Below are positions 13,063 through 43,740 of a DNA stretch of 43,842 nucleotides, piece after piece. Source of the stretch: Candidatus Accumulibacter aalborgensis (GTDB lineage: Bacteria > Pseudomonadota > Gammaproteobacteria > Burkholderiales > Rhodocyclaceae); assembly GCF_900089955.1 (NCBI RefSeq), contig NZ_FLQX01000136.1:1-43842 (forward strand), given 5' to 3'. The position numbers and the translations under genes are program-made. Position 1 is the first letter of the stretch; each line of letters starts with the position of its first letter. The notes under the pieces are model-generated. The model had not been told where the DNA came from and did no database searches. It saw nothing but the letters and a program-made list of their open reading frames with translations.

Positions 13063-14238
13063 ATGTTCCCTCGGCATCTCCTCTCGACGCTGCATCGCCT
13101 TTCGGGCTGCTTTCCGGTGGTCGTTATTACCGGGCCAAGGCAGTCGGGGAAAACAACGCTGGCCAGGGTCGCTTTTGGTGATAGGCCTTACGTCAGCCTG
13201 GAAGACCCGATCGAAAGGGCGTTCGCCATTGAAGATCCGAGAGGGTTTCTGGCCAGGTTTCCGGACGGAGCGGTGTTTGATGAGGCACAACGGTGGCCGG
13301 AGTTGTTCTCTCATCTGCAAGGCGTCGTGGATCGGTCGCGGCGACCCGGGATGTTCGTTCTGACCGGATCGCAGCAGTTTGGATTGCTTGCCGGTATAAC
13401 CCAGTCCCTGGCGGGACGAGCAGGGTTGACCCACCTCTTGCCGTTGTCTCTTGCGGAGATCCCATCGGCAAAGGAGGCGGTGACTTCGCTCGATGCCCTA
13501 TTGGTGAGGGGCGGCTATCCTGCTCTGCACGCTTACACAATCGATCCGGCGGACTGGTTCGCCAGCTACGTGGCCACCTATGTAGAGCGCGATGTGCGGC
13601 AGGTGCTGAACGTGCAGGATCTGTCGACGTTTCAGCGTTTCTTGCGCCTGTGCGCAGGACGTACGGGTCAGTTGCTCAATCTCAGTGCCCTGGCGGGTGA
13701 AGCGGGAATTTCCCAGACCACCGCACGTGCGTGGCTGTCGGTACTCGAATCGAGTTATCTGGTGTTTCTCTTGCCGCCATATCACCGGAACTTCGGTAAG
13801 CGACTGGTCAAGACGCCCAAGTTGTACTTCACGGATGTGGGGTTAGCAGCCTGGTTATTGGGCATTCGTTCGGCCGACGTGCTAGCGCTGCACCCCTCGC
13901 GCGGTGCCTTGTTCGAGACGCTGGTGGTCGGCGAGTTTCTCAAGGCGCGCTTCAATGCCGGGTTGCCGGCCGATCTCTATTTCTGGCGGGACAATAACGG
14001 CCTGGAGGCTGACCTGGTTTTTGAGCAGGGCCAGCGCCTGCAAACGATTGAAATCAAGTCGGGCCAGACTGCTACGACTGACTACATTCGCGCCGGACAA
14101 AGGTCGGCGCACTTTGCCGGCGACGCGGCCGCTCCTCCGTGGCTGGTTTACGGCGGGGATCAGGCTTATGTACGAAGCGGCTTGAGGGTGATGGGCTGGC
14201 GAGAACTGACCAATGATGTCGACTTGCTATCAACATAA
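13063..14238 (+). CDS. AAA ATPase with DUF4143 C-terminal domain, copy A
   Basis: 391-residue AAA_14/DUF4143 protein. Walker A G-P-R-Q-S-G-K-T-T at residues 24-32; Walker B A-V-F-D-E-A-Q at 70-76; sensor-like L-T-G-S-Q-Q-F near 100-106. The C-terminal DUF4143 part holds a PD-(D/E)xK-like pattern: A-D-L-V, then I-E-I-K-S-G-Q-T. Members are widespread in mobile and stress-associated loci, but their biochemical role is unsettled. The start at ATG 13063 follows the palindrome directly. It converges with the Rpn-type gene. It differs from copy B by only three residues (H11D, V36L, R60S). Confidence 0.88.
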   Translation: MFPRHLLSTLHRLSGCFPVVVITGPRQSGKTTLARVAFGDRPYVSLEDPIERAFAIEDPRGFLARFPDGAVFDEAQRWPELFSHLQGVVDRSRRPGMFVLTGSQQFGLLAGITQSLAGRAGLTHLLPLSLAEIPSAKEAVTSLDALLVRGGYPALHAYTIDPADWFASYVATYVERDVRQVLNVQDLSTFQRFLRLCAGRTGQLLNLSALAGEAGISQTTARAWLSVLESSYLVFLLPPYHRNFGKRLVKTPKLYFTDVGLAAWLLGIRSADVLALHPSRGALFETLVVGEFLKARFNAGLPADLYFWRDNNGLEADLVFEQGQRLQTIEIKSGQTATTDYIRAGQRSAHFAGDAAAPPWLVYGGDQAYVRSGLRVMGWRELTNDVDLLST

Positions 14239-20896: not shown

Positions 20897-22072
20897 ATGT
20901 TCCCTCGGCATCTCCTCTCGACGCTGGATCGCCTTTCGGGCTGCTTTCCGGTGGTCGTTATTACCGGGCCAAGGCAGTCGGGGAAAACAACACTGGCCAG
21001 ACTCGCTTTTGGCGATAGGCCTTACGTCAGCCTGGAAGACCCGATCGAAAGGGCGTTCGCCATTGAAGATCCGAGTGGGTTTCTGGCCAGGTTTCCGGAC
21101 GGAGCGGTGTTTGATGAGGCACAACGGTGGCCGGAGTTGTTCTCTCATCTGCAAGGAGTCGTGGATCGGTCGCGGCGACCCGGGATGTTCGTTCTGACCG
21201 GATCGCAGCAGTTTGGATTGCTTGCCGGTATAACCCAGTCCCTGGCGGGACGAGCAGGGTTGACCCACCTCTTGCCGTTGTCTCTTGCGGAGATCCCATC
21301 GGCAAAGGAGGCAGTGACTTCGCTCGATGCCCTATTGGTGAGGGGCGGCTATCCTGCTCTGCACGCTTACACGATCGATCCGGCGGACTGGTTCGCCAGC
21401 TACGTGGCCACCTATGTAGAGCGAGATGTGCGGCAGGTGCTGAACGTGCAGGATCTGTCGACGTTTCAACGTTTCTTGCGCCTGTGCGCAGGACGTACGG
21501 GTCAGTTGCTCAATCTCAGTGCCCTGGCGGGTGAAGCGGGAATTTCCCAGACCACCGCACGTGCGTGGCTGTCGGTACTCGAATCGAGCTATCTGGTGTT
21601 TCTTTTGCCGCCCTATCACCGGAACTTCGGTAAGCGACTGGTCAAGACGCCCAAGTTGTACTTCACGGATGTGGGCTTGGCCGCCTGGTTATTGGGCATT
21701 CGTTCGGCCGACGTGCTAGCGCTGCACCCCTCGCGCGGTGCCTTGTTCGAGACGCTGGTGGTCGGCGAGTTTCTCAAGGCGCGCTTCAATGCCGGGTTGC
21801 CGGCCGATCTCTATTTCTGGCGGGACAACAACGGCCTGGAGGCTGACCTGGTTTTTGAGCAGGGCCAGCGCCTGCAAACGATTGAAATCAAGTCGGGCCA
21901 GACTGCTACGACTGACTACATTCGCGCCGGACAAAGGTCGGCGCACTTTGCCGGCGACGCGGCCGCTCCTCCGTGGCTGGTTTACGGCGGGGATCAGGCT
22001 TATGTACGAAGCGGCTTGAGGGTGATGGGCTGGCGGGAACTGACCAATGATGTCGACTTGCTATCAACATAA
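20897..22072 (+). CDS. AAA ATPase with DUF4143 C-terminal domain, copy B
   Basis: 391 residues, identical to copy A (13063-14238) except D11, L36 and S60, all in the first 60 residues. Walker A (24-32), Walker B (70-76) and the C-terminal I-E-I-K motif are all intact, so both copies look functional. It is preceded by its own palindrome and by an epimerase tail, and followed by the same inverted repeat and a truncated Rpn-type gene. The near identity implies a recent duplication or gene conversion. Confidence 0.88.
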   Translation: MFPRHLLSTLDRLSGCFPVVVITGPRQSGKTTLARLAFGDRPYVSLEDPIERAFAIEDPSGFLARFPDGAVFDEAQRWPELFSHLQGVVDRSRRPGMFVLTGSQQFGLLAGITQSLAGRAGLTHLLPLSLAEIPSAKEAVTSLDALLVRGGYPALHAYTIDPADWFASYVATYVERDVRQVLNVQDLSTFQRFLRLCAGRTGQLLNLSALAGEAGISQTTARAWLSVLESSYLVFLLPPYHRNFGKRLVKTPKLYFTDVGLAAWLLGIRSADVLALHPSRGALFETLVVGEFLKARFNAGLPADLYFWRDNNGLEADLVFEQGQRLQTIEIKSGQTATTDYIRAGQRSAHFAGDAAAPPWLVYGGDQAYVRSGLRVMGWRELTNDVDLLST

Positions 22073-31776: not shown

Positions 31777-32199
31777 TCAGGAAAGATCAAATCGAGCTAG
31801 CCCCAGCGTCTCACTTGCGTCGCACAAGCGGCGGTCAAGACTGGCGATGCGGGCACCCAGGCGGCGGGCAACCGCCAAATGCAGCGCATCTCCTGCACGC
31901 AGGGCGATGGGTGTTTCAATGAACACGGCGGCGGTGCGGAAATCCGCAGGTTCTATTTCCGTCATGCCCAGATTAATTGAGACAAAACGCTGAAAATTAG
32001 CCAGTGCCTGCTGGCGGGTACTGGCGTCGATGGCGCCCGTCCGCTGTTTGATGCCGCCAATGCTGGCCATTTCGGTCAATGTCCAGGCCGAAATCATCAG
32101 TCGCGCTTTGCGCTGTTGCTCGAGTCGCGTCACAAGATCGGCCGCGCCAGGTTCGCGAAAGAAAATTGCCCCCAACACCGAGGTGTCGATATAGATCAC
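31777..32199 (-). CDS. PIN-domain toxin (VapC-like)
   Basis: 140 residues. Acidic PIN residues present: D5 (Y-I-D-T-S-V), E43 (L-T-E-M), D104 (A-G-D-A-L-H-L-A) and D122 (S-L-D-R-R). Expected Mg-dependent RNase. The start is GTG at 32199, overlapping the antitoxin stop as GTGA; the longer upstream frame is rejected. Complete and apparently functional. Confidence 0.88.
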   Translation of the reverse strand: MIYIDTSVLGAIFFREPGAADLVTRLEQQRKARLMISAWTLTEMASIGGIKQRTGAIDASTRQQALANFQRFVSINLGMTEIEPADFRTAAVFIETPIALRAGDALHLAVARRLGARIASLDRRLCDASETLGLARFDLS

Positions 32200-32432
32200 A
32201 GCAGATCGCGTTCGCGCATCTCGGCAACCGTCAGGCCCGACAGAGGGGGGGCGGACACCCAAAGGTGCAATTCAGCCCAGTCAAACCCCCCCGCTCGCGG
32301 CTCCGGGATGAGACGCGCCACAGGGATTCCCCGACGGGTGATAACCACGCCCGCACCGGCCTCGTCGGCCTCCACTTCAGCCAGCACGGCGGATAGATGC
32401 GACTTGGCATAAGCTACAGTGGCAGTTTTCAT
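32196..32432 (-). CDS. Phd/YefM-family antitoxin
   Basis: 78 residues. The N-terminus V-A-Y-A-K-S-H-L-S-A-V-L-A-E-V, then V-V-I-T-R-R-G-I-P-V-A-R-L-I-P, is the Phd fold; a short C-terminal tail (A-E-M-R-E-R-D-L-L) should bind the PIN toxin. Its stop overlaps the toxin's GTG start by 4 bp. The ~90-bp gap 32433-32525 carries its promoter, with an AT-rich TTGGTAAAAACTAAG stretch. Confidence 0.87.
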   Translation of the reverse strand: MKTATVAYAKSHLSAVLAEVEADEAGAGVVITRRGIPVARLIPEPRAGGFDWAELHLWVSAPPLSGLTVAEMRERDLL

Positions 32433-32525: not shown

Positions 32526-33479
32526 TTAGCCCTCAACCTCGTCCCCGGAAAGCTGTTGCAGCCGCTCGGCCAGACGGCCGAGTTCGGCTGCCGAGCTGAC
32601 CTTGAGTTTCGCCATGCACTGCGCGGGCTCGGCCTTGGCGGTGCGTTCGGAGATCGCCAATTCGTCGGCAATCTGCTTGTTGAGCCGGCCGGCGACGATG
32701 CGATCGAAGACCTCGCGTTCGCGGGGGGTGAGCGAGGCAAAGCCGGCACGCAGTTGCCGCGCTTCGTCGCTCGCTGCTCGCTGCAGCGCTATACGGAACA
32801 GCGCCCCGCCGCCGGGCCGGTTCTCGGCATGCAGGCGGCCACCGTGGGCTTCGACGAGGGTGCGTGCAATCGACAGCCCCAGCCCCATGCCCTGGGGATC
32901 GATCAGCACCTGCTGGATCTGGATGCGGTCACCGACCAGCGTGGCGCTCGTCGGTGCCGTTTGAATGTCGAGGCTCATCCCTCGTCGCTGGATTTCGCTA
33001 CGCAACAGGGAAGCCATCTTGCTCGCGACGTCATTGAGGTCGAAGGCTCGCCGCTCGGCCTCGTGTCGGGTGAGCAGCAGGCGCAGCCGGCGGATGACTT
33101 CACTGGCGCGCATGTCGTCGCGGCGAATGTCGGCAAGAATTTCGCGCAGCTCGTCGCGCCGGTCAGCGCCGGATTCAAGCGTCAGTTCGGCGGCGTCTGC
33201 GTTGCTCAAGATGGCGCCGAGCGGCTGGTTGATCTCGTGCGCGATCGAGCCGGTCAGCTCGCCGACGACCGCCAGCCGTGAGGCATGGGCGAGTTCGAAG
33301 CGCTGCTTCTGGATGGCCTGTTCGCCCAGGCGGCGGTGACGCCGCTCGAACAGGAGCTGGGCAATCAGCGCGGGCGGTCGGGTAGCGTACTTCGCCCGCA
33401 GGTAACTCACCACGGCGTCGGTGTCGGCGCGCCATTGTTCACGAGGGATAACAGCCGGTTTGTCTCTGCGATGATCCAT
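32526..33479 (-). CDS. chimeric, deletion-derived histidine kinase-LuxR protein
   Basis: A single open frame of 317 codons from ATG 33479. In order: a short piece of the sensor domain (Y-L-R-A-K-Y-A-T-R-P-P-A); the juxtamembrane L-L-F-E-R-R-H-R-R; the HisKA region with the phospho-His motif A-H-E-I-N-Q-P-L-G; a C-terminal remnant of the ATPase domain (G-M-G-L-G-L-S-I-A-R); then directly the LuxR helix-turn-helix of a response regulator (L-T-P-R-E-R-E-V-F-D to A-E-L-G-R-L-A-E-R). Compared with the intact pair at 34339-36887, three frame-preserving deletions removed most of the sensor, the kinase N-box/G1/F-box (57 residues net), and the HK tail plus receiver. Kinase activity should be lost; a DNA-binding product remains conceivable. 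Confidence 0.75.
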   Translation of the reverse strand: MDHRRDKPAVIPREQWRADTDAVVSYLRAKYATRPPALIAQLLFERRHRRLGEQAIQKQRFELAHASRLAVVGELTGSIAHEINQPLGAILSNADAAELTLESGADRRDELREILADIRRDDMRASEVIRRLRLLLTRHEAERRAFDLNDVASKMASLLRSEIQRRGMSLDIQTAPTSATLVGDRIQIQQVLIDPQGMGLGLSIARTLVEAHGGRLHAENRPGGGALFRIALQRAASDEARQLRAGFASLTPREREVFDRIVAGRLNKQIADELAISERTAKAEPAQCMAKLKVSSAAELGRLAERLQQLSGDEVEG

Positions 33480-33539: not shown

Positions 33540-33785
33540 ATGCAAGTTGCCAAGTGGGGTAACAGTCTGGCGGTGCGATTGCCCGTAGCCCTGGTGAAAG
33601 AACTGGGCATTTCAGAAGGTGACGAGTTGATGTTGCAGCCTGTCCCGCAGCAAGCGGGGCTGCCGGCCTGCGTATCCGTTGCGCGCCAGCCCGGAAAACT
33701 TGAGCAACTCCAGGCCATGCGTGGGCTTCGTGCGCCCTGGCCGGCTGATTTTTCTTTTGACCGCGAAGAAGCCAACGCGAGGTGA
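33540..33785 (+). CDS. AbrB/MazE-like antitoxin
   Basis: 81 residues. M-Q-V-A-K-W-G-N-S-L-A-V-R-L-P-V-A-L-V-K-E-L-G-I and E-G-D-E-L form the swapped-hairpin AbrB/MazE DNA-binding fold; the C-terminal half, with P-W-P-A-D-F-S-F-D-R, binds the toxin. The stop overlaps the PIN start (GTGA). A decayed paralogue lies at 36930-37098. Confidence 0.87.
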   Translation: MQVAKWGNSLAVRLPVALVKELGISEGDELMLQPVPQQAGLPACVSVARQPGKLEQLQAMRGLRAPWPADFSFDREEANAR

Positions 33786-34198
33786 AAACATTCATCGACA
33801 CCAATGTGCTGGTTTACTGGGTGGATGACAGCGCGCGGGCTGATGCTGTTGAACAATTGCTGGCAGGCGAGAGCGTCATCAGCGTTCAGGTGCTCAACGA
33901 ATTTGCCAACGTGCTGCGGAAAAAACGAGCCATGCCCGTGGCGGACATCCAGACATTGAGCAACACCCTGATCAGCGCTTGTGAGGTTCATGACCTGAGC
34001 GTACGCACGCATCAGGCCGCCCTGGCATTGATGGCGCGCTACAACTGGTCCCTGTATGACGCCAATATCGTTGCTGCAGCCGGTCTGAGCGGCTGCGCCA
34101 TTTTGTGTAGCGAGGATATGCAGGACGGCTGCAACATCAAATTTCCCGAATCAGCGGGGGGCGCCACGCTGACGATTCGCAATCCCTTCAGGGCTTGA
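33782..34198 (+). CDS. PIN-domain toxin partnered with MazE-like antitoxin
   Basis: 138 residues, GTG start. PIN acidic residues: D6 (F-I-D-T-N-V), E40 (V-L-N-E-F), D93 (L-Y-D-A-N-I) and D112 (C-S-E-D-M). The ending F-P-E-S-A-G-G-A is retained in the relic copy at 37099-37313. Likely an RNase neutralised by the preceding gene. Complete. Confidence 0.88.
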   Translation: MKTFIDTNVLVYWVDDSARADAVEQLLAGESVISVQVLNEFANVLRKKRAMPVADIQTLSNTLISACEVHDLSVRTHQAALALMARYNWSLYDANIVAAAGLSGCAILCSEDMQDGCNIKFPESAGGATLTIRNPFRA

Positions 34199-34338: not shown

Positions 34339-34959
34339 CTACTCGCCGGAAAGCTGTTGCCGCCGCTCGGCCAGACGGCCGAGTTCGGCTGCCGAGCTGA
34401 CCTTGAGTTTCGCCATGCACTGCGCGCGCTCGGCCTTGACGGTGCGCTCGGAGATCGCCAGCTCGTCGGCAATCTGCTTGTTGAGCCGGCCGGCGACAAT
34501 GCGATCGAAGACCTCGCGTTCGCGCGGTGTGAGCGAGGCAAAGGCGGCACGCAGTTGCCGTGCTTCGTCGCGCGCTGAGCGCTGGAGTGCGTCGACCGCA
34601 AGCGCACGCCGCAGCGCATCAAAAAGGGTGTCGCGCGTGACCGGCTTGGCCAGGAAGTCCACGGCGCCGGCCTTCATTGCCCGAACACAGGAGTTGACGT
34701 CGGCGTAACCGGTCAGAAATATCACCGGCAAGGTAATCCCCTGCTGCTGCAGCGCCGCCTGCAGGTCGAGGCCGGATGGCCCCGGCAGGCGGACGTCGAG
34801 CAACAGGCAGCCGGGGCGGTCAGTCCGCGGATGCAGCAGGAAGTCGCCGGTCGAGGCGTAGCCGCGCGCCTCGAAACCGGCCGCTGCGAGCAGCCGCAGC
34901 AGTGCGTTGCGTAGCGACTCGTCGTCATCGACGACATGGATCAGCGCTGTCGTATTCAT
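34339..34959 (-). CDS. FixJ/NarL-type response regulator
   Basis: 206 residues. Receiver domain: acidic D-D-D-E at 10-13, phospho-acceptor Asp in L-L-L-D-V-R-L-P-G-P-S-G, Thr in F-L-T-G-Y-A, Lys in F-L-A-K-P-V. The C-terminal LuxR HTH has L-T-P-R-E-R-E-V-F-D-R-I-V-A-G-R-L-N-K-Q-I-A. The ATG at 34959 overlaps the kinase stop (ATGA); a longer upstream frame inside the kinase is rejected. Cognate partner of the kinase immediately upstream. Its HTH has a deleted twin in the chimera at 32526-33479. Confidence 0.9.
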   Translation of the reverse strand: MNTTALIHVVDDDESLRNALLRLLAAAGFEARGYASTGDFLLHPRTDRPGCLLLDVRLPGPSGLDLQAALQQQGITLPVIFLTGYADVNSCVRAMKAGAVDFLAKPVTRDTLFDALRRALAVDALQRSARDEARQLRAAFASLTPREREVFDRIVAGRLNKQIADELAISERTVKAERAQCMAKLKVSSAAELGRLAERRQQLSGE

Positions 34960-36887
34960 TCCGTCTCCGCTGAGGATTTTGCCTTGGCGTCGGTCGCCGG
35001 CCATTCAATACGGAACAGCGCCCCGCCGCCAGGCGGGTTCTCGGCATGCAGGCGGCCACCGTGGGCTTCGACGATGGTGCGCGCAATCGACAGCCCCAGC
35101 CCCATGCCCTGGGGCTTGGTCGTGAAGAACGAATCGAAGATCTGTGGCAGATACTCGGGTGCAATGCCGTGACCGCGATCACTGACCGCGATGGCGATGG
35201 CATCGGCCCGCGAGGAGACGGAGACGAGTATCGTGCGCCGGTTCTCGGGCAGGTCGGCTACCGCGTCCATGGCGTTAAGCACCAGATTGATCAGCACCTG
35301 CTGGACCTGGATGCGGTCGCCGACCAGCGTGGCACTTGTCGGCGCCGTTTGAATGTCGAGGCTCATCCCCCGTCGCTGTACTTCGCTACGCAACAGTGTA
35401 GCCATCTCGATCACGACGTCATTGAGGTCGAAGGCTTGCCGCTCGGCCTCGTGTCGGGTGAGCAGCAAGCGCAGCCGGCGGATGACTTCACTGGCGCGCA
35501 GGTCGTCGCGGCGAATGTCGGCAAGAATTTCGCGCAGCTCGCCGCGCCGGTCGGCAGCGGATTCAAGCATCAGTTCGGCGGCGTCGGCGTTGCTCAGGAT
35601 GGCGCCGAGCGGCTGGTTGATCTCGTGCGCAATCGAGCCGGTCAGCTCGCCGACGACCGCCAGCCGCGAGGCATGGGCGAGTTCGAAGCGCTGCTTCTGG
35701 TTGGCCTGCTCGGCCAGGCGGCGGTGACGTCGTTCGAACAGGAGCCAGGCAATCAGCGCGGCCTGCAGCAGGAACACGATGGCGCCGGCGATCAGCTCAT
35801 TATGGTGCTCTTCCCACAAGCCGGGTTCGCGGAAATGCACGATGGCGTCGCCTGGAATGGCGGTCTCGTCGATACCCCAGCGGCGCACCTGCCGCCAATC
35901 GACATTAAGGGTCGTCGGCATGATTTCGGGCAAGCGCAGCGCGGCAGGTGCGGCGCCGTCGAGCAGGGCGTTGACGATTTCCCCGGCCTGCCGGCCCATG
36001 GCCGCGTAATTCGGCATGCGGCCACCGACGATGCCGGAGCCGATGAAGGTGTCGAACGGCCCATACACCGGCGCGGTCGCCGCTGAAGCCATGGCCTCGG
36101 CGGATTCGCGCGGTGTGAAGTTGCGGCCATCGCCATCCTTGAAGTATCCGGGGGTAAACACCACGCTGTCGCCTCCGAGTTCACCCAAGCGCTTCAGCAG
36201 CGCTGCGGTTGGCATCCCCGCGAGAAACTCGACCGTCGCCCGGTCCTTGAAACCGGGGACTTCGGCTTGCAACCAGCCCTCCCACCCCCGATCCCATACA
36301 CCGGTGCCGGTAACGAACACCAGACGCCTAGCCCGCGGATGCCAGCGCAAAGCCTGGTCGATGGTGCTGGAAATATCGTACTTGATCGGGACGCCGAACA
36401 CGTCGGCGGGTAGCGCTGGGATCGACCGCAGGAACGATTTGGGAGCGCTCATGAAGACCACCGGGACTTCTGGAAAGAGCGCTGCGCGATTCTCGAGAAC
36501 GAAACTGAGCGCCTCTTGATTCCCCACAACGATCACCGCAGGCGGTCGGGTCGCGTACTTATCGCGAAGGTACGTGGTAACGGTGCGCGCGTACGCCTGT
36601 CCGCCGAAGCGGGGCACGTCGAGAAACTCGTCGAACAGCGCGACCGGTCGATCTGCAGAAGTCCGGATCGTCTCGCGGAGCCCGTGATCGAGCTTGATGT
36701 TCGCCGGGAGCAAGCGACTGTTGGCATAGAGCACGAGGACGTTGCGGGTTTCCGCCGCGCTTGCCGCCTGTAGACCCACAAGGGCAAGGGCAGCCGCGAC
36801 GACCCAGGGACAGACCAGCCGCAGCGGAGTCGGCGGCAACGCCGTGCGCATTGCGGAATTCGACCGCCGCCGAAGATTCGTCGTCAT
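34956..36887 (-). CDS. sensor histidine kinase with ABC-substrate-binding-like sensor domain
   Basis: 643 residues. A signal/TM segment at ~20-45 is followed by a ~300-residue periplasmic domain (N-V-L-V-L-Y-A-N-S, V-V-F-M-S-A-P, V-V-F-T-P-G-Y) like ABC_sub_bind sensor kinases. Next comes a second TM (A-I-V-F-L-L-Q-A-A-L-I-A-W-L-L-F), HisKA with A-H-E-I-N-Q-P, and HATPase with N-L-V-L-N-A-M-D-A (N box), D-R-G-H-G-I-A (G1), F-F-T-T-K (F box) and G-M-G-L-G-L-S (G2). The start at ATG 36887 is chosen (36851 possible); the 102 residues further upstream read antisense through the MazE-PIN relic. The stop overlaps the regulator start. Signal unknown. Confidence 0.85.
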   Translation of the reverse strand: MTTNLRRRSNSAMRTALPPTPLRLVCPWVVAAALALVGLQAASAAETRNVLVLYANSRLLPANIKLDHGLRETIRTSADRPVALFDEFLDVPRFGGQAYARTVTTYLRDKYATRPPAVIVVGNQEALSFVLENRAALFPEVPVVFMSAPKSFLRSIPALPADVFGVPIKYDISSTIDQALRWHPRARRLVFVTGTGVWDRGWEGWLQAEVPGFKDRATVEFLAGMPTAALLKRLGELGGDSVVFTPGYFKDGDGRNFTPRESAEAMASAATAPVYGPFDTFIGSGIVGGRMPNYAAMGRQAGEIVNALLDGAAPAALRLPEIMPTTLNVDWRQVRRWGIDETAIPGDAIVHFREPGLWEEHHNELIAGAIVFLLQAALIAWLLFERRHRRLAEQANQKQRFELAHASRLAVVGELTGSIAHEINQPLGAILSNADAAELMLESAADRRGELREILADIRRDDLRASEVIRRLRLLLTRHEAERQAFDLNDVVIEMATLLRSEVQRRGMSLDIQTAPTSATLVGDRIQVQQVLINLVLNAMDAVADLPENRRTILVSVSSRADAIAIAVSDRGHGIAPEYLPQIFDSFFTTKPQGMGLGLSIARTIVEAHGGRLHAENPPGGGALFRIEWPATDAKAKSSAETE

Positions 36888-36929
36888 CCTCCAGGGCTCA
36901 CGTGCAGCGGGGATGGGGTCTCGCTTACA

Positions 36930-37313
36930 GGTGAATGAGCTACTGCTGCAGCCTGTACCGCGCCAAGCGGGTTGGCCCGCCTGTGTGACCGTGGCGCGCC
37001 AACCCGGAAAAGCTGAGCAACTGCAAGCGATGCGTCGGTTTCGTGCGCCCTGGCCGGCTGATTTTTCTTTTGACCGCGACGAGGCGAACGTGCGTTGAGT
37101 AAGGTTCATGACCTCAGCATGCGCACGGATCAGGCCGCCCTGGCCTTGATGGCGCGTACAACTTCTCGCTGTATGACGCCAATATCGTTGCAACCGCTGG
37201 CCTCAGCGGTTGCGCCATCTTGTGCAGCGAGGATATGCAGGACGGCTTGAATATCACATTCCCCGAATCAGCGGGGGCTCGATGCTGTCGACTCGCCATC
37301 CCTTCAGTGGGTG
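36930..37313 (+). pseudogene. MazE-PIN relic (duplicate of 33540-34198)
   Basis: The MazE part lacks its DNA-binding half and begins at N-E-L-L-L-Q-P-V-P, ending E-A-N-V-R with the stop at 37098. The PIN part lacks about 68 N-terminal codons, resumes at V-H-D-L-S-M-R-T-D-Q-A-A-L-A-L, loses one base in GATGGCGCG-TACAAC (frameshift), then keeps C-A-I-L-C-S-E-D-M-Q-D-G and F-P-E-S-A-G. Neither protein can work. Confidence 0.85.
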
Positions 37314-37424
37314 ATTCAGGTCGGCGCAACGGCATCATCGTCGATCAGCCGGACCATGCCAGTAGCCGCCACTCGACCATCATCGCTGACCACCAAGGTC
37401 TTGGCTGAGCCCGCGCCAGTTCAC

Positions 37425-38512: not shown

Positions 38513-40108
38513 CTAGTTGTGTGGCGGCGCCAGGCTTTCCAGCTCATTCAGCCGCTTCATCGCCTGCATCGCCTTCAGCGAGTCGTAGTTGATTCCGGCA
38601 GCGTTGAGGCTGCTGCCCTGCTGGAACGGATACTCGGGCAAGGTCTTCAGGAATGCGCCGAGCTTCTGCTGCACCGGAACGAACAGCCAGATGTTGTCCG
38701 CGTACCAGCGCAGGTACAGCCCCGATTCATGCGGCGCTTTCTCGTAGGGGTCGGCGCGCAGATTGACGATCACCGGCCAGCCCGGAACGTCGCGCACCGC
38801 GGTGGCGATGTTGCCGTTGGTGACCGCGAAATGGACCTTCCAGTCATTCCAGCGCACGGCATTCAACTCGCCACCCTGGCCGAAATAGAAGATCTCCTCG
38901 CGCGGGCCCTTCTTCGCCTCGCCCCTGAAGTAGGGCAGGAAGTTGTAGCCGTCGAGGTGCGCCTTCCAGGTCTTGCCGTTGGCGCTGTAACCCTGCTTGA
39001 GCTTGTCGGCGATGTCGGGTACGCCGGCCGCCGCGAGGAAGGTGGGCAGCCAGTCTTCCTGCGAGAAGATATCGTTGACGATCGTTCCCGGCTTGATCGT
39101 TCCCGGCCAGCGCACGAGCATCGGCACGCGGAAACCGCCCTCCCAGGTGGTGCCTTTCTCGCCGTGGAACGGCGTCGTTCCGCCATCGGGCCAAGTGCCG
39201 GTCTCGGCGCCGTTGTCGGTGCCGTAAACGACGATGGTGTTGTCGGCCACCTTCAGGTCATCAAGCTGCTTGAGCACTTCACCGACCATGTCGTCGTGCT
39301 CGACCATGCCGTCGGGGTACAGGCCGATGCCGGTGCGGCCCTCGGCGGACTTCTTCAGCCGCGTCCACACATGCATGCGCGTGGTGTTGAACCACACGAA
39401 GAAGGGCTTGCCGCTCCTGGCCGCGTCGGCGACGAACTTCTGCTCGGCGGCGAAGATTTCTTCGTCGACGGTTTCCATGCGCTGCCTGGTCAGCGGCCCG
39501 GTGTCCTCGATCTTCTGCCCGCCTTTGCCGTCGCTCCAGGTGTGCAGCACGCCGCGCGGGCTGAATTTCTTGCGGAACGCGGGGTCCTTCGGGTAGTAGT
39601 AGGTCTCGGGTTCTTCTTGGGCATTCAGGTGGTAGAGGTTGCCGAGGAATTCATCAAAGCCGTGCACCGTGGGCAGATGCGAGTTCTGATCGCCGAGGTG
39701 GTTTTTGCCGAACTGGCCGGTGACATAACCCTGCGGTTTCAGCAGGTCGGCGATGGTCGGTGCCCAGCTCGGGATGCCCTGCGGCGAGCCGGGCATGCCG
39801 ATGGTCAGCAGGCCGGTGCGGAACGGATGCTGGCCGAGAATGAACGAAGCGCGTCCGGCGGTGCAGCTCTGCTGCGCGTAGGCGTCGGTAAAGATCGCGC
39901 CCTCCCTGGCGAGGCGGTCGATGTTTGGCGTCTGGTAGCCCATCACGCCGAGGTTGTAGGCGCTGATGTTGGAGACGCCGATGTCGTCTCCCCAGATGAC
40001 CAGGATGTTGGGTTTCTTTGCCGGCGCCTGTGCGAAGGCAGGCGTGGCGCCAGCCAGCGCAAGCCCGATCGCGGCGGTCATCATGACGACGAATCGTTGC
40101 AGGATCAT
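38513..40108 (-). CDS. arylsulfatase-type sulfatase, periplasmic
   Basis: 531 residues with a signal peptide ending A-F-A-Q-A. Metal site D41-D42 in I-W-G-D-D-I-G-V-S-N; formylglycine site C82 in S-C-T-A-G-R, the C-x-A-x-R form recognised by formylglycine-generating enzyme. G-K-N-H-L-G-D follows, and the second metal site is T-D-N-G-A-E. Complete family length. Hydrolyses sulfate (or related) esters; the substrate is unknown. Good RBS (GGAGCAAGGAA) before ATG 40108. It lies 62 bp downstream of the HAD gene and is followed by the CcoQ-like gene. Confidence 0.9.
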   Translation of the reverse strand: MILQRFVVMMTAAIGLALAGATPAFAQAPAKKPNILVIWGDDIGVSNISAYNLGVMGYQTPNIDRLAREGAIFTDAYAQQSCTAGRASFILGQHPFRTGLLTIGMPGSPQGIPSWAPTIADLLKPQGYVTGQFGKNHLGDQNSHLPTVHGFDEFLGNLYHLNAQEEPETYYYPKDPAFRKKFSPRGVLHTWSDGKGGQKIEDTGPLTRQRMETVDEEIFAAEQKFVADAARSGKPFFVWFNTTRMHVWTRLKKSAEGRTGIGLYPDGMVEHDDMVGEVLKQLDDLKVADNTIVVYGTDNGAETGTWPDGGTTPFHGEKGTTWEGGFRVPMLVRWPGTIKPGTIVNDIFSQEDWLPTFLAAAGVPDIADKLKQGYSANGKTWKAHLDGYNFLPYFRGEAKKGPREEIFYFGQGGELNAVRWNDWKVHFAVTNGNIATAVRDVPGWPVIVNLRADPYEKAPHESGLYLRWYADNIWLFVPVQQKLGAFLKTLPEYPFQQGSSLNAAGINYDSLKAMQAMKRLNELESLAPPHN

Positions 40109-41324: not shown

Positions 41325-43040
41325 TTAGTCTCCACGGGAGCGAGTCCTCGCCATTTGATTTTTTACCTCCACGAGGACCTGAGCCAGGCTGTAGGACGCC
41401 GGGGACTGCAGCGCCGGGAATGGCCCGTAAGACTCAAGTTCCTTCAGCCACAACGCCTGGCCGATGGGAATGATGTTCCAGTCGTAGATGTAGGCGGTCA
41501 TTGGTCCGGCAAGCGCGCCGCCTGTGCCGAGAAGGGTCTTCGGTTCGAAACCGACGGACCCCTCGAACGGATCGCGCTTGATGTTGTTGACCAAAGGCCA
41601 ATGGAAGGTATGGACCCCCATCAAGCCGCCGGTCGCTGCCTCGGATGCCATCGCGAAGTAGATCTTCCAGTTCTTGTAGCGCACTGCCGAAGGCACAGCG
41701 CCTCCGTAGTAGAAGAACGTATCGCGTGCCGACGTCGCCGACTTGCCGGTCAGGTAGTCAAGCTGGTTGACCCCTTGAAGCTTGGTCTTGACGATGCCGG
41801 GATACTTGCCCGCCATGATCTGCTCGTTCAGTGCATTGCCCTTGGCGCCACCGGCAATTTCAACAAGTGTCGGCATCCAGTCATACGACGCGAACATGTC
41901 GTTCAGAACGGTGCCCGGCTTGATGTGCCCCGGCCAGCGGATCACCGCCGGAGCGCGCATGCCGCCTTCCCAGGTGGTCAGCTTGCCGCCCTTGAACGGC
42001 GTGTTGCCGCCGTCGGGGTAGGTGATCACTTCGGCGCCGTTGTCGGTGGTGAAGACGATGATGGTGTTGTCGAGTTCGCCCATCGCCTCCAGCTTCTTGA
42101 TCACCTCGCCGATGTTGTCGTCCACCTGCTTCATGGCGGCTTCGTTGGCGCCCCAGTCCTTGCCGCCTTTGGTGCCGACCATGGCCATGTACTTGTCCGA
42201 CAGCATGGTGGTGACGTGCATGCGCGCCGGGTTGTACCAGACGAAGAACGGCTTGTTGGTCTTCTTCGGGTCGTTGCGGTCGAGGAAGTCGATGACCTTG
42301 GTCGAGATTTCCTCATCCACGGTCTCCGACCGTTTGAGCGTCAGCGGACCCTGGTCGCTGCAGGTCTGGTTCTTCTCGGTGCCGTCGGAAGACGTGCAGG
42401 CGAGCACCGGTCGTGGCGGCGTCATGCACAGCGTGGTCTTCGCGTCCACTGCGCCGGGGGGATCGCTGAGGCCACGCACCGGTGTGTTCTTGCACGGTGC
42501 GATGATGGCCTGCTCGGTGGGTGTCTTGTTGATGTCGGGGAAGCTGACGCCCTGCATCGCGTCCAGGTGGTAGAGGTAACCCCAGAATTCCTGGAAGCCG
42601 TGCGCCGTCGGCAGCGCCGCCGAGTGGTCGCCCAGATGGTTCTTGCCGAACTCGCCGGTGGTGTAGCCAAGGTCAAGCAGAAACTTGGCCAGCGACGGCG
42701 TACCGGGCTGCAGGAAGGACGGGCTGCCGGGCAATTGCGGCGGGATCATGCCGGCGCGCAGCGGCGTCATGCCGGTGAAGAAAGCGGTGCGCCCAGCCGT
42801 GCAGCTTTGCTCGGCGTAATAGGTCATGAACTTCGCGCCCTCGTGCCCGATACGGTCGATATTGGGCGTCTCGCCGACCATCAGGCCTTGGTGGTAGATG
42901 CTCGGCTGCATCCAGCCGATGTCGTCGCCCATGATGAACAGGATGTTGGGCTTCCCCGTCGCTCCCTGCGCTTGCCCGGCAACCAGGGCCAGCGTGGCGA
43001 TCAAGAGGCAACAGAATCTCGTTAGGCAGTTCAAGATCAA
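41325..43040 (-). CDS. arylsulfatase-type sulfatase, periplasmic (second)
   Basis: 571 residues from a proposed TTG start at 43040, placed 6 bp after AAGGAG and yielding a signal peptide (F-C-C-L-L-I-A-T-L-A-L-V-A-G-Q-A-Q-G-A). D39-D40 are in I-M-G-D-D-I-G; formylglycine Cys C80 in S-C-T-A-G-R; then G-K-N-H-L-G-D and T-D-N-G-A-E. About 40% similar by eye to the sulfatase at 38513, with an extra Cys-containing insert (C-K-N, T-L-C-M, L-A-C-T, T-C-S-D). The frame stays open upstream to an ATG at 43304, adding a TM-like stretch (G-S-A-V-V-F-F-F-L-Y-A) that would bury the signal peptide. Confidence 0.85.
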   Translation of the reverse strand: MILNCLTRFCCLLIATLALVAGQAQGATGKPNILFIMGDDIGWMQPSIYHQGLMVGETPNIDRIGHEGAKFMTYYAEQSCTAGRTAFFTGMTPLRAGMIPPQLPGSPSFLQPGTPSLAKFLLDLGYTTGEFGKNHLGDHSAALPTAHGFQEFWGYLYHLDAMQGVSFPDINKTPTEQAIIAPCKNTPVRGLSDPPGAVDAKTTLCMTPPRPVLACTSSDGTEKNQTCSDQGPLTLKRSETVDEEISTKVIDFLDRNDPKKTNKPFFVWYNPARMHVTTMLSDKYMAMVGTKGGKDWGANEAAMKQVDDNIGEVIKKLEAMGELDNTIIVFTTDNGAEVITYPDGGNTPFKGGKLTTWEGGMRAPAVIRWPGHIKPGTVLNDMFASYDWMPTLVEIAGGAKGNALNEQIMAGKYPGIVKTKLQGVNQLDYLTGKSATSARDTFFYYGGAVPSAVRYKNWKIYFAMASEAATGGLMGVHTFHWPLVNNIKRDPFEGSVGFEPKTLLGTGGALAGPMTAYIYDWNIIPIGQALWLKELESYGPFPALQSPASYSLAQVLVEVKNQMARTRSRGD

Positions 43041-43278
43041 GATCTTCTCCTTGACAATTGGGTGTTTGGCAAACAAGCGGCAACTGCTGAAAACAGAACC
43101 GTCGCCGTCCTTGAAACAGATCCAAAGCTCGACGAGCCTACACTTTATCATGTAGGGCGTGTGGAGAATTCCGCTGTCCACCAAGGCCGCTTGCAAGCCG
43201 GCGTACAGAAAGAAGAACACAACGGCGCTCCCGACGACCACGGCACGTCGGCCGCCACCGCTGCGCCTCAATTTCCTT

Positions 43279-43740
43279 TCAATGCTGGTGATCTGTATGC
43301 CCATCGGCGGCTGCGCTGAGTAGCGGCGTAAACCGCGCTTGCTCGGCTTTCGCGCTGGCGAAAGTGACCGACACGACGACTTTCATCTGGGGATCCGACG
43401 CATAGCTGCCGACCCCGGTCAGCTTGTTGTCGCCGGACGGAGCCAGAGGGACGGTGATTTTCGATTTTGCTGCCAGAATCGTCGCCGTACCAGTAGCGCC
43501 GGCTGCGGGGATCTTCTTGTCGCCATGGTCGGTGAGATAGACCGTGACCGGGTTGTCTTTGGCTTCCTTGCTGTTCTTGGCGACTACCAGCTCGAAATGA
43601 TAGGGCCCAGCCATGCGCAACTGGCCGCCGTTGGGCCCACTGATTTTGTCGAGAGCCGCATCGTCATGGGCGAAGGCTGCGTTACCGAAGAACATCAAGG
43701 CGGCAGTCATGGCCAGGCTGGAAATCAGGGTGCGGTGCAT
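43279..43740 (-). CDS. small periplasmic His-tailed protein, probably metal-efflux associated
   Basis: 153 residues. The signal peptide ends N-A-A-F-A-H. The mature part has G-P-N-G-G-Q-L-R-M-A-G-P-Y-H-F-E-L-V and a beta-rich domain (V-T-V-Y-L-T-D-H-G), ending D-G-H-T-D-H-Q-H, a possible metal ligand cluster. GAGGAAG precedes ATG 43740. It follows, by 23 bp, the tail of a probable RND pump, so is likely part of a Czc/Cus-type operon (inference). Its stop overlaps an ATG of the open frame leading into the sulfatase. Confidence 0.7.
   Translation of the reverse strand: MHRTLISSLAMTAALMFFGNAAFAHDDAALDKISGPNGGQLRMAGPYHFELVVAKNSKEAKDNPVTVYLTDHGDKKIPAAGATGTATILAAKSKITVPLAPSGDNKLTGVGSYASDPQMKVVVSVTFASAKAEQARFTPLLSAAADGHTDHQH

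Follow-up and report, generated by a model that had tools for sequence, protein, structure and literature searches.

Introduction

Within-gene insertions and deletions can alter the domain make-up of two-component genes and form pseudogenes, according to the sections of a myxobacterial two-component survey that treat such events (PMC4603909). Those sections also describe three frameshift-linked cases, for which it was unclear whether they were true changes of family or gene loss in progress (PMC4603909). The locus described here resembles the cases in those sections in that two-component genes appear to be lost by within-gene indels, but differs from them in that three deletions have left a single frame out of a whole histidine kinase-response regulator (HK-RR) operon copy, whose sister copy next to it is intact (PMC4603909).

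The fused frame lies in a window of 43,842 nucleotides (the whole stretch of DNA that was analysed), close to an intact pair of the same family. The intact regulator of this pair aligns with FixJ and StyR (structures 5xso and 1yio) over both receiver and helix-turn-helix (HTH), whereas the fused frame keeps the HTH block without the receiver, and has a proline in place of the arginine found in both. The same family includes separate HK and RR genes (for example L044, L038, G010 and G023:C46), which are whole and unfused, unlike the fused frame. Fifteen relatives carry a kinase 50-67% identical to the intact one, and in most of them the regulator adjoins it. We conclude that the fused frame is very probably a decaying duplicate of the neighbouring operon.

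Results

Architecture of the fused frame

The 317-codon open frame described in the earlier note is present on the minus strand, with its ATG at 33479 and its stop at 32526-32528, and is a mosaic of four blocks with 84-96% identity to the intact pair of kinase and FixJ-type regulator at 34339-36887 (Table 1). BLAST blocks against this pair also bear out the three deletions claimed there: about 780 bp (260 codons) from the sensor, 171 bp (57 codons) from the N/G1/F region, and about 417 bp that held the kinase tail and the receiver, where one base was gained. A fourth change replaces the kinase N-terminus with 25 codons for which BLAST finds no counterpart in the intact kinase and which show, in a forced global alignment to it, weak and gapped likeness only. 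The differences between the copies fall in every block (33 in HisKA, 4 in G2, 17 in HTH and 5 in the sensor fragment), and the three long blocks, over 831 aligned bases, hold 54 substitutions but no small indels. By eye, the deletion ends carry a partial repeat at the sensor junction, a one-base repeat at the ATPase junction and no others. The divergent orientation relative to an intact MazE-PIN pair, also claimed, was found as described, with MazE-PIN starting at 33540.

Table 1. Positions of the fused frame, its blocks and the neighbouring genes in the window
Feature	Positions	Strand	Remarks
Phd/YefM-PIN pair adjoining the probable remnant	31777..32432	-	Anchor for the matching site in same-genus G023
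Fused 317-codon open frame, probable remnant of an HK-RR operon copy	32526..33479	-	
LuxR/GerE HTH block	32542..32789	-	231/248 identical to 34343-34590; R193P and V189A
Kinase ATPase stub (G2 box and HATPase end)	32791..32896	-	102/106 identical to 35008-35113
Sensor end and HisKA (phospho-acceptor His kept), up to N box	32897..33373	-	444/477 identical to 35285-35761; Pfam HisKA
Short sensor-domain fragment	33374..33404	-	26/31 identical to 36542-36572
First 25 codons of the fused frame	33405..33479	-	No BLAST match to intact kinase
Intact MazE-like antitoxin, divergent from the fused frame	33540..33785	+	Pfam PF04014
Intact PIN-domain toxin of the MazE pair	33782..34198	+	Pfam PF01850
Intact FixJ/StyR-type response regulator (receiver and LuxR HTH)	34339..35004	-	
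Intact sensor histidine kinase, same operon as the regulator	34956..36887	-	Full-length relatives exist
Decayed second MazE-PIN copy	36929..37326	+	82-84% identical pieces

Pfam recognises HisKA (PF00512, 30.9 bits, cut-off 26.9, with the phospho-acceptor His81 kept), a 42-residue HATPase_c tail and GerE (53.4 bits) in the fused frame; no Response_reg match was found in it, while the intact regulator has one. The HATPase_c match covers profile positions 68-109 of 111, and the full set of what we take to be the N, G1, F and G2 boxes is absent. A 36-residue G2-box stub of this domain sits between HisKA and the HTH, at odds with the direct HisKA-HTH fusion that had been proposed. The predicted structure has a mean pLDDT of 70.8 and a pTM of 0.31, with values below 50 for residues 195-224 (the G2 stub) and 288-296, and shows long helices in the HisKA region, where block pLDDT is 60-81 over residues 61-140. 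This model drew on 16 alignment rows covering the HisKA region only; since the HTH had no alignment, the model is weak. A promoter scan found none against 0.3 expected by chance, and so has no power either way.

An open frame is expected by chance

In the intact pair, the HTH and G2 blocks contain zero stops in all three sense frames, and the HisKA block has one open sense frame. When breakpoints were drawn at random, the joint stayed open, that is, with one sense frame across at least 95% of it, in 3398 of 4000 trials with shifts of up to 15 bases and in 2863 of 4000 with shifts of up to 60 (72-85%). A cruder count, asking for a frame of at least 300 codons with shifts of up to 60, gave 1317 of 4000 trials. 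Since random breakpoints so often leave the joint open, the open frame itself carries little weight. The earlier argument that three frame-preserving events have a chance of 1 in 27 thus fails for openness, but stands, on a simple count, for the fact that all pieces lie in their native frames.

Conservation of the HTH and HisKA regions

Arg193 of the regulator is a proline in the fused frame, while the same site in 97 related HTHs holds 93 arginines, 4 lysines and no proline; StyR and FixJ also align with arginine here. Val189 is an alanine, at a site with 85 valines, 10 isoleucines, 1 leucine and 1 alanine among the same 97. These are distinct HTH segments from the fetched loci, 143 in all less 11 (8 on the window's own contig, plus L118-L120). 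Both residues lie in what we take, from established knowledge of LuxR/FixJ HTHs, to be the recognition helix. As read from these near-invariant columns, the predicted LuxR HTH of the fused frame is without an intact recognition helix. A role as competitor or repressor, suggested in the earlier note, needs a working HTH, and R193P and V189A speak against it.

The HisKA region, on the other hand, is better kept. The fused frame retains 22 of 23 columns that are invariant among 16 relatives, His81 included, and the sole altered one (A163) is altered in the intact copy too. Over the HisKA block, 143 of 158 codons give the same residue as in the intact kinase, and 9 of the 15 amino-acid differences arose on the side of the fused frame (junction codon included).

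Substitutions in the two HK-RR copies

Between the two copies, NG86 gives a dN of 0.041, a dS of 0.153 and a ratio of 0.27 over 274 codons. Differences were polarised with related operons as outgroups (up to 15 rows per site, counting the junction codon and the short fragment of the sensor as well; by eye, row L045 is shifted by one column over the regulator). Among the 24 amino-acid differences, 14 had arisen in the fused frame and 9 in the intact copy, with 1 unassigned; silent changes numbered 12 on the fused-frame side and 14 on the intact side, with 8 unassigned. Since both copies carry changes of their own, the polarised sites rule out descent of the fused frame from the present intact copy, and make it a sister of that copy.

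The dN/dS of the retained parts, which had been put forward as a check, depends on the model. The codon models used 273 codons and seven outgroups (L045 not among them). Without a clock, the fused-frame branch had an omega of 0.52, which did not differ from 1 (2dlnL 0.34) and exceeded the family value of 0.135 (2dlnL 4.2). With a clock, which gives both copies equal time, omega fell to 0.235; a value of 1 was rejected (2dlnL 20.1) and 0.4 was not (2.6), nor was equality with the intact copy (2dlnL 0.66) or with the family (2dlnL 2.26). A clock is reasonable for two copies sharing one genome, and therefore the lineage of the fused frame was probably constrained through much of its history, which says nothing on the fused form. 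For comparison, the dead MazE-PIN copy, pairwise against the intact pair, gives dN/dS values of 0.17 (52 codons) and 0.11 (40 codons).

The matching site in a same-genus genome

In the same-genus genome G023, the Phd/PIN pair (window 31777-32432) is followed by the same 84-bp flank, which reaches window 32519, and after it by about 249 bp that match the intact regulator at 34423-34671. This piece carries two neighbouring one-base indels and a gap of two bases, with a net frameshift, and its C-terminus is cut; it retains receiver sequence that is absent from the fused frame. Farther on lies a stretch that we take to be a transposase end, IS66-like. Because the G023 piece keeps receiver sequence and is frameshifted, the site probably held a receiver-bearing regulator before the split, which then decayed in its own way in G023. 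A frameshift in sister strains had been named as evidence against a selected product: a frameshifted and truncated regulator does sit at the matching site, but in another species of the genus and not in a sister strain.

Silent divergence between G023 and the window is 0.16 for Phd and 0.20 for PIN, close to the 0.15 between the HK-RR copies, and therefore the copies would date to about the species split. The G023 remnant groups as sister of the fused frame at 6 sites and as sister of both copies at 6, with 2 sites giving neither. The Phd/PIN pair of G023 (L137:3589-4245) shows one-base gaps against that of the window, and may be decaying too.

The MazE-PIN copies

In the MazE-PIN copy at 36929-37326, mazE has lost its 5' end, and the PIN gene is internally deleted and frameshifted. 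The order of the parts suggests a single tandem duplication of HK-RR and MazE-PIN, but the dS of 0.63-0.66 between the MazE-PIN copies, about four times the 0.15 of the HK-RR blocks, disagrees with it. Therefore, the toxin-antitoxin copies are the older ones, unless a later copying or conversion event affected HK-RR. By this measure, the two modules would not share one simple duplication date.

Search for similar fusions

Searching relatives for the same chimera, as the earlier note had advised, returned none: among the matches listed, the window's own was alone in covering both halves, both in a set of 61 genomes and in an overlapping set of 399 (E<=1e-25, five candidates scored per genome), all of other species. 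No like fusion occurs among 79 related loci either, where matches starting by residue 64 and ending at residue 303 or later span 1.3-1.4 kb, fitting separate HK and RR genes. Two candidates were set aside: G046:C27 has both halves near each other, but as two ORFs in different frames, and L088 is an ordinary receiver-HTH regulator.

Discussion

Taken together, our analysis points to the following course of events. Two HK-RR copies would have diverged from one ancestor at about the species split from G023, and one of them (34.3-36.9 kb) would have stayed whole. The other would have been constrained for a time and then broken, losing most of the sensor, the ATP-binding core and the receiver through separate deletions and acquiring harmful substitutions in its DNA-binding helix. 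What remains would be the fused open frame, its GC-rich DNA keeping the joint open for most deletion ends. On the sequence evidence, the fused frame most likely makes no working regulator, and we infer that its loss of constraint is recent. Against this course speak the clock-based omega, the long blocks free of small indels, the native frame of every piece and the well-kept HisKA columns; in its favour, besides the deletions and the R193P and V189A changes, are the decay of the MazE-PIN copy nearby and the clock-free omega of 0.52. Of the two readings that had been left open before, a neutral intermediate is hence favoured over a selected DNA-binding protein.

That second reading, in which a selected HisKA-HTH protein competes with the regulator by occupying its binding sites, would agree with the native frame running open through all pieces, with a GerE match that still scores 53.4 bits and with the clock-based omega of 0.235. 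We find it hardly credible, however, given a recognition-helix proline where 97 of 97 relatives have arginine or lysine, a frameshifted regulator at the matching G023 site, an openness expected by chance and no like fusion among the matches listed for the 61 and 399 genomes or in the 79 loci. Decidedly unlikely, though less so, is a putative product whose HisKA (DHp) hairpin pairs with the intact kinase as a dominant negative or a phosphate sink, the HTH being a passive tail. The 22 of 23 invariant columns kept with His81, the 143 of 158 shared residues and the long predicted helices (block pLDDT 60-81) are in its favour, but the frame no longer encodes the membrane anchor or most of the sensor, 9 of the 15 differences in the block lie on the side of the fused frame, and the same genome and locus searches listed no like fusion. 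There is a slim chance that the hairpin of the putative fused product enters mixed dimers with the neighbouring intact kinase and damps its signalling; if so, a regulator would have arisen from the wreck of its own duplicate.

An artefact, either a false join or a collapse of near-identical copies, might be suspected in an assembly of 181 contigs. The copies differ by about 7%, however, and because the fused frame has its own differences in every block (33, 4, 17 and 5), it was not stitched from reads of the intact copy. We therefore regard this explanation, including the assembly collapse raised earlier as a possible refutation, as very unlikely.

With the decaying duplicate as the preferred reading, the locus indicates that a remnant may keep its frame open, show recognisable domains and have an average dN/dS well below 1, because GC-rich DNA opens several frames and the average includes the time before the break. 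For gene annotation, a neighbour that is clearly dead but has just as low a dN/dS makes a useful control.

Other features of the window

Near-identical 391-codon ORFs, AAA/DUF4143-like by eye, lie about 7.8 kb apart at 13063-14238 and 20897-22072. Two sulfatase-like ORFs, at 38513-40108 and 41325-43304, enclose a HAD-like ORF (all as judged by eye), and the stretch 40173-42954 matches G021:C56 at 87.6%. The 5' part of the ORF at 41325-43304 contains a segment (43147-43275) of which about 126-129 bp recur at about 79% identity in three genomes of the genus (L141, L142 and L143), within the fetched regions that surround distant HK-RR relatives.
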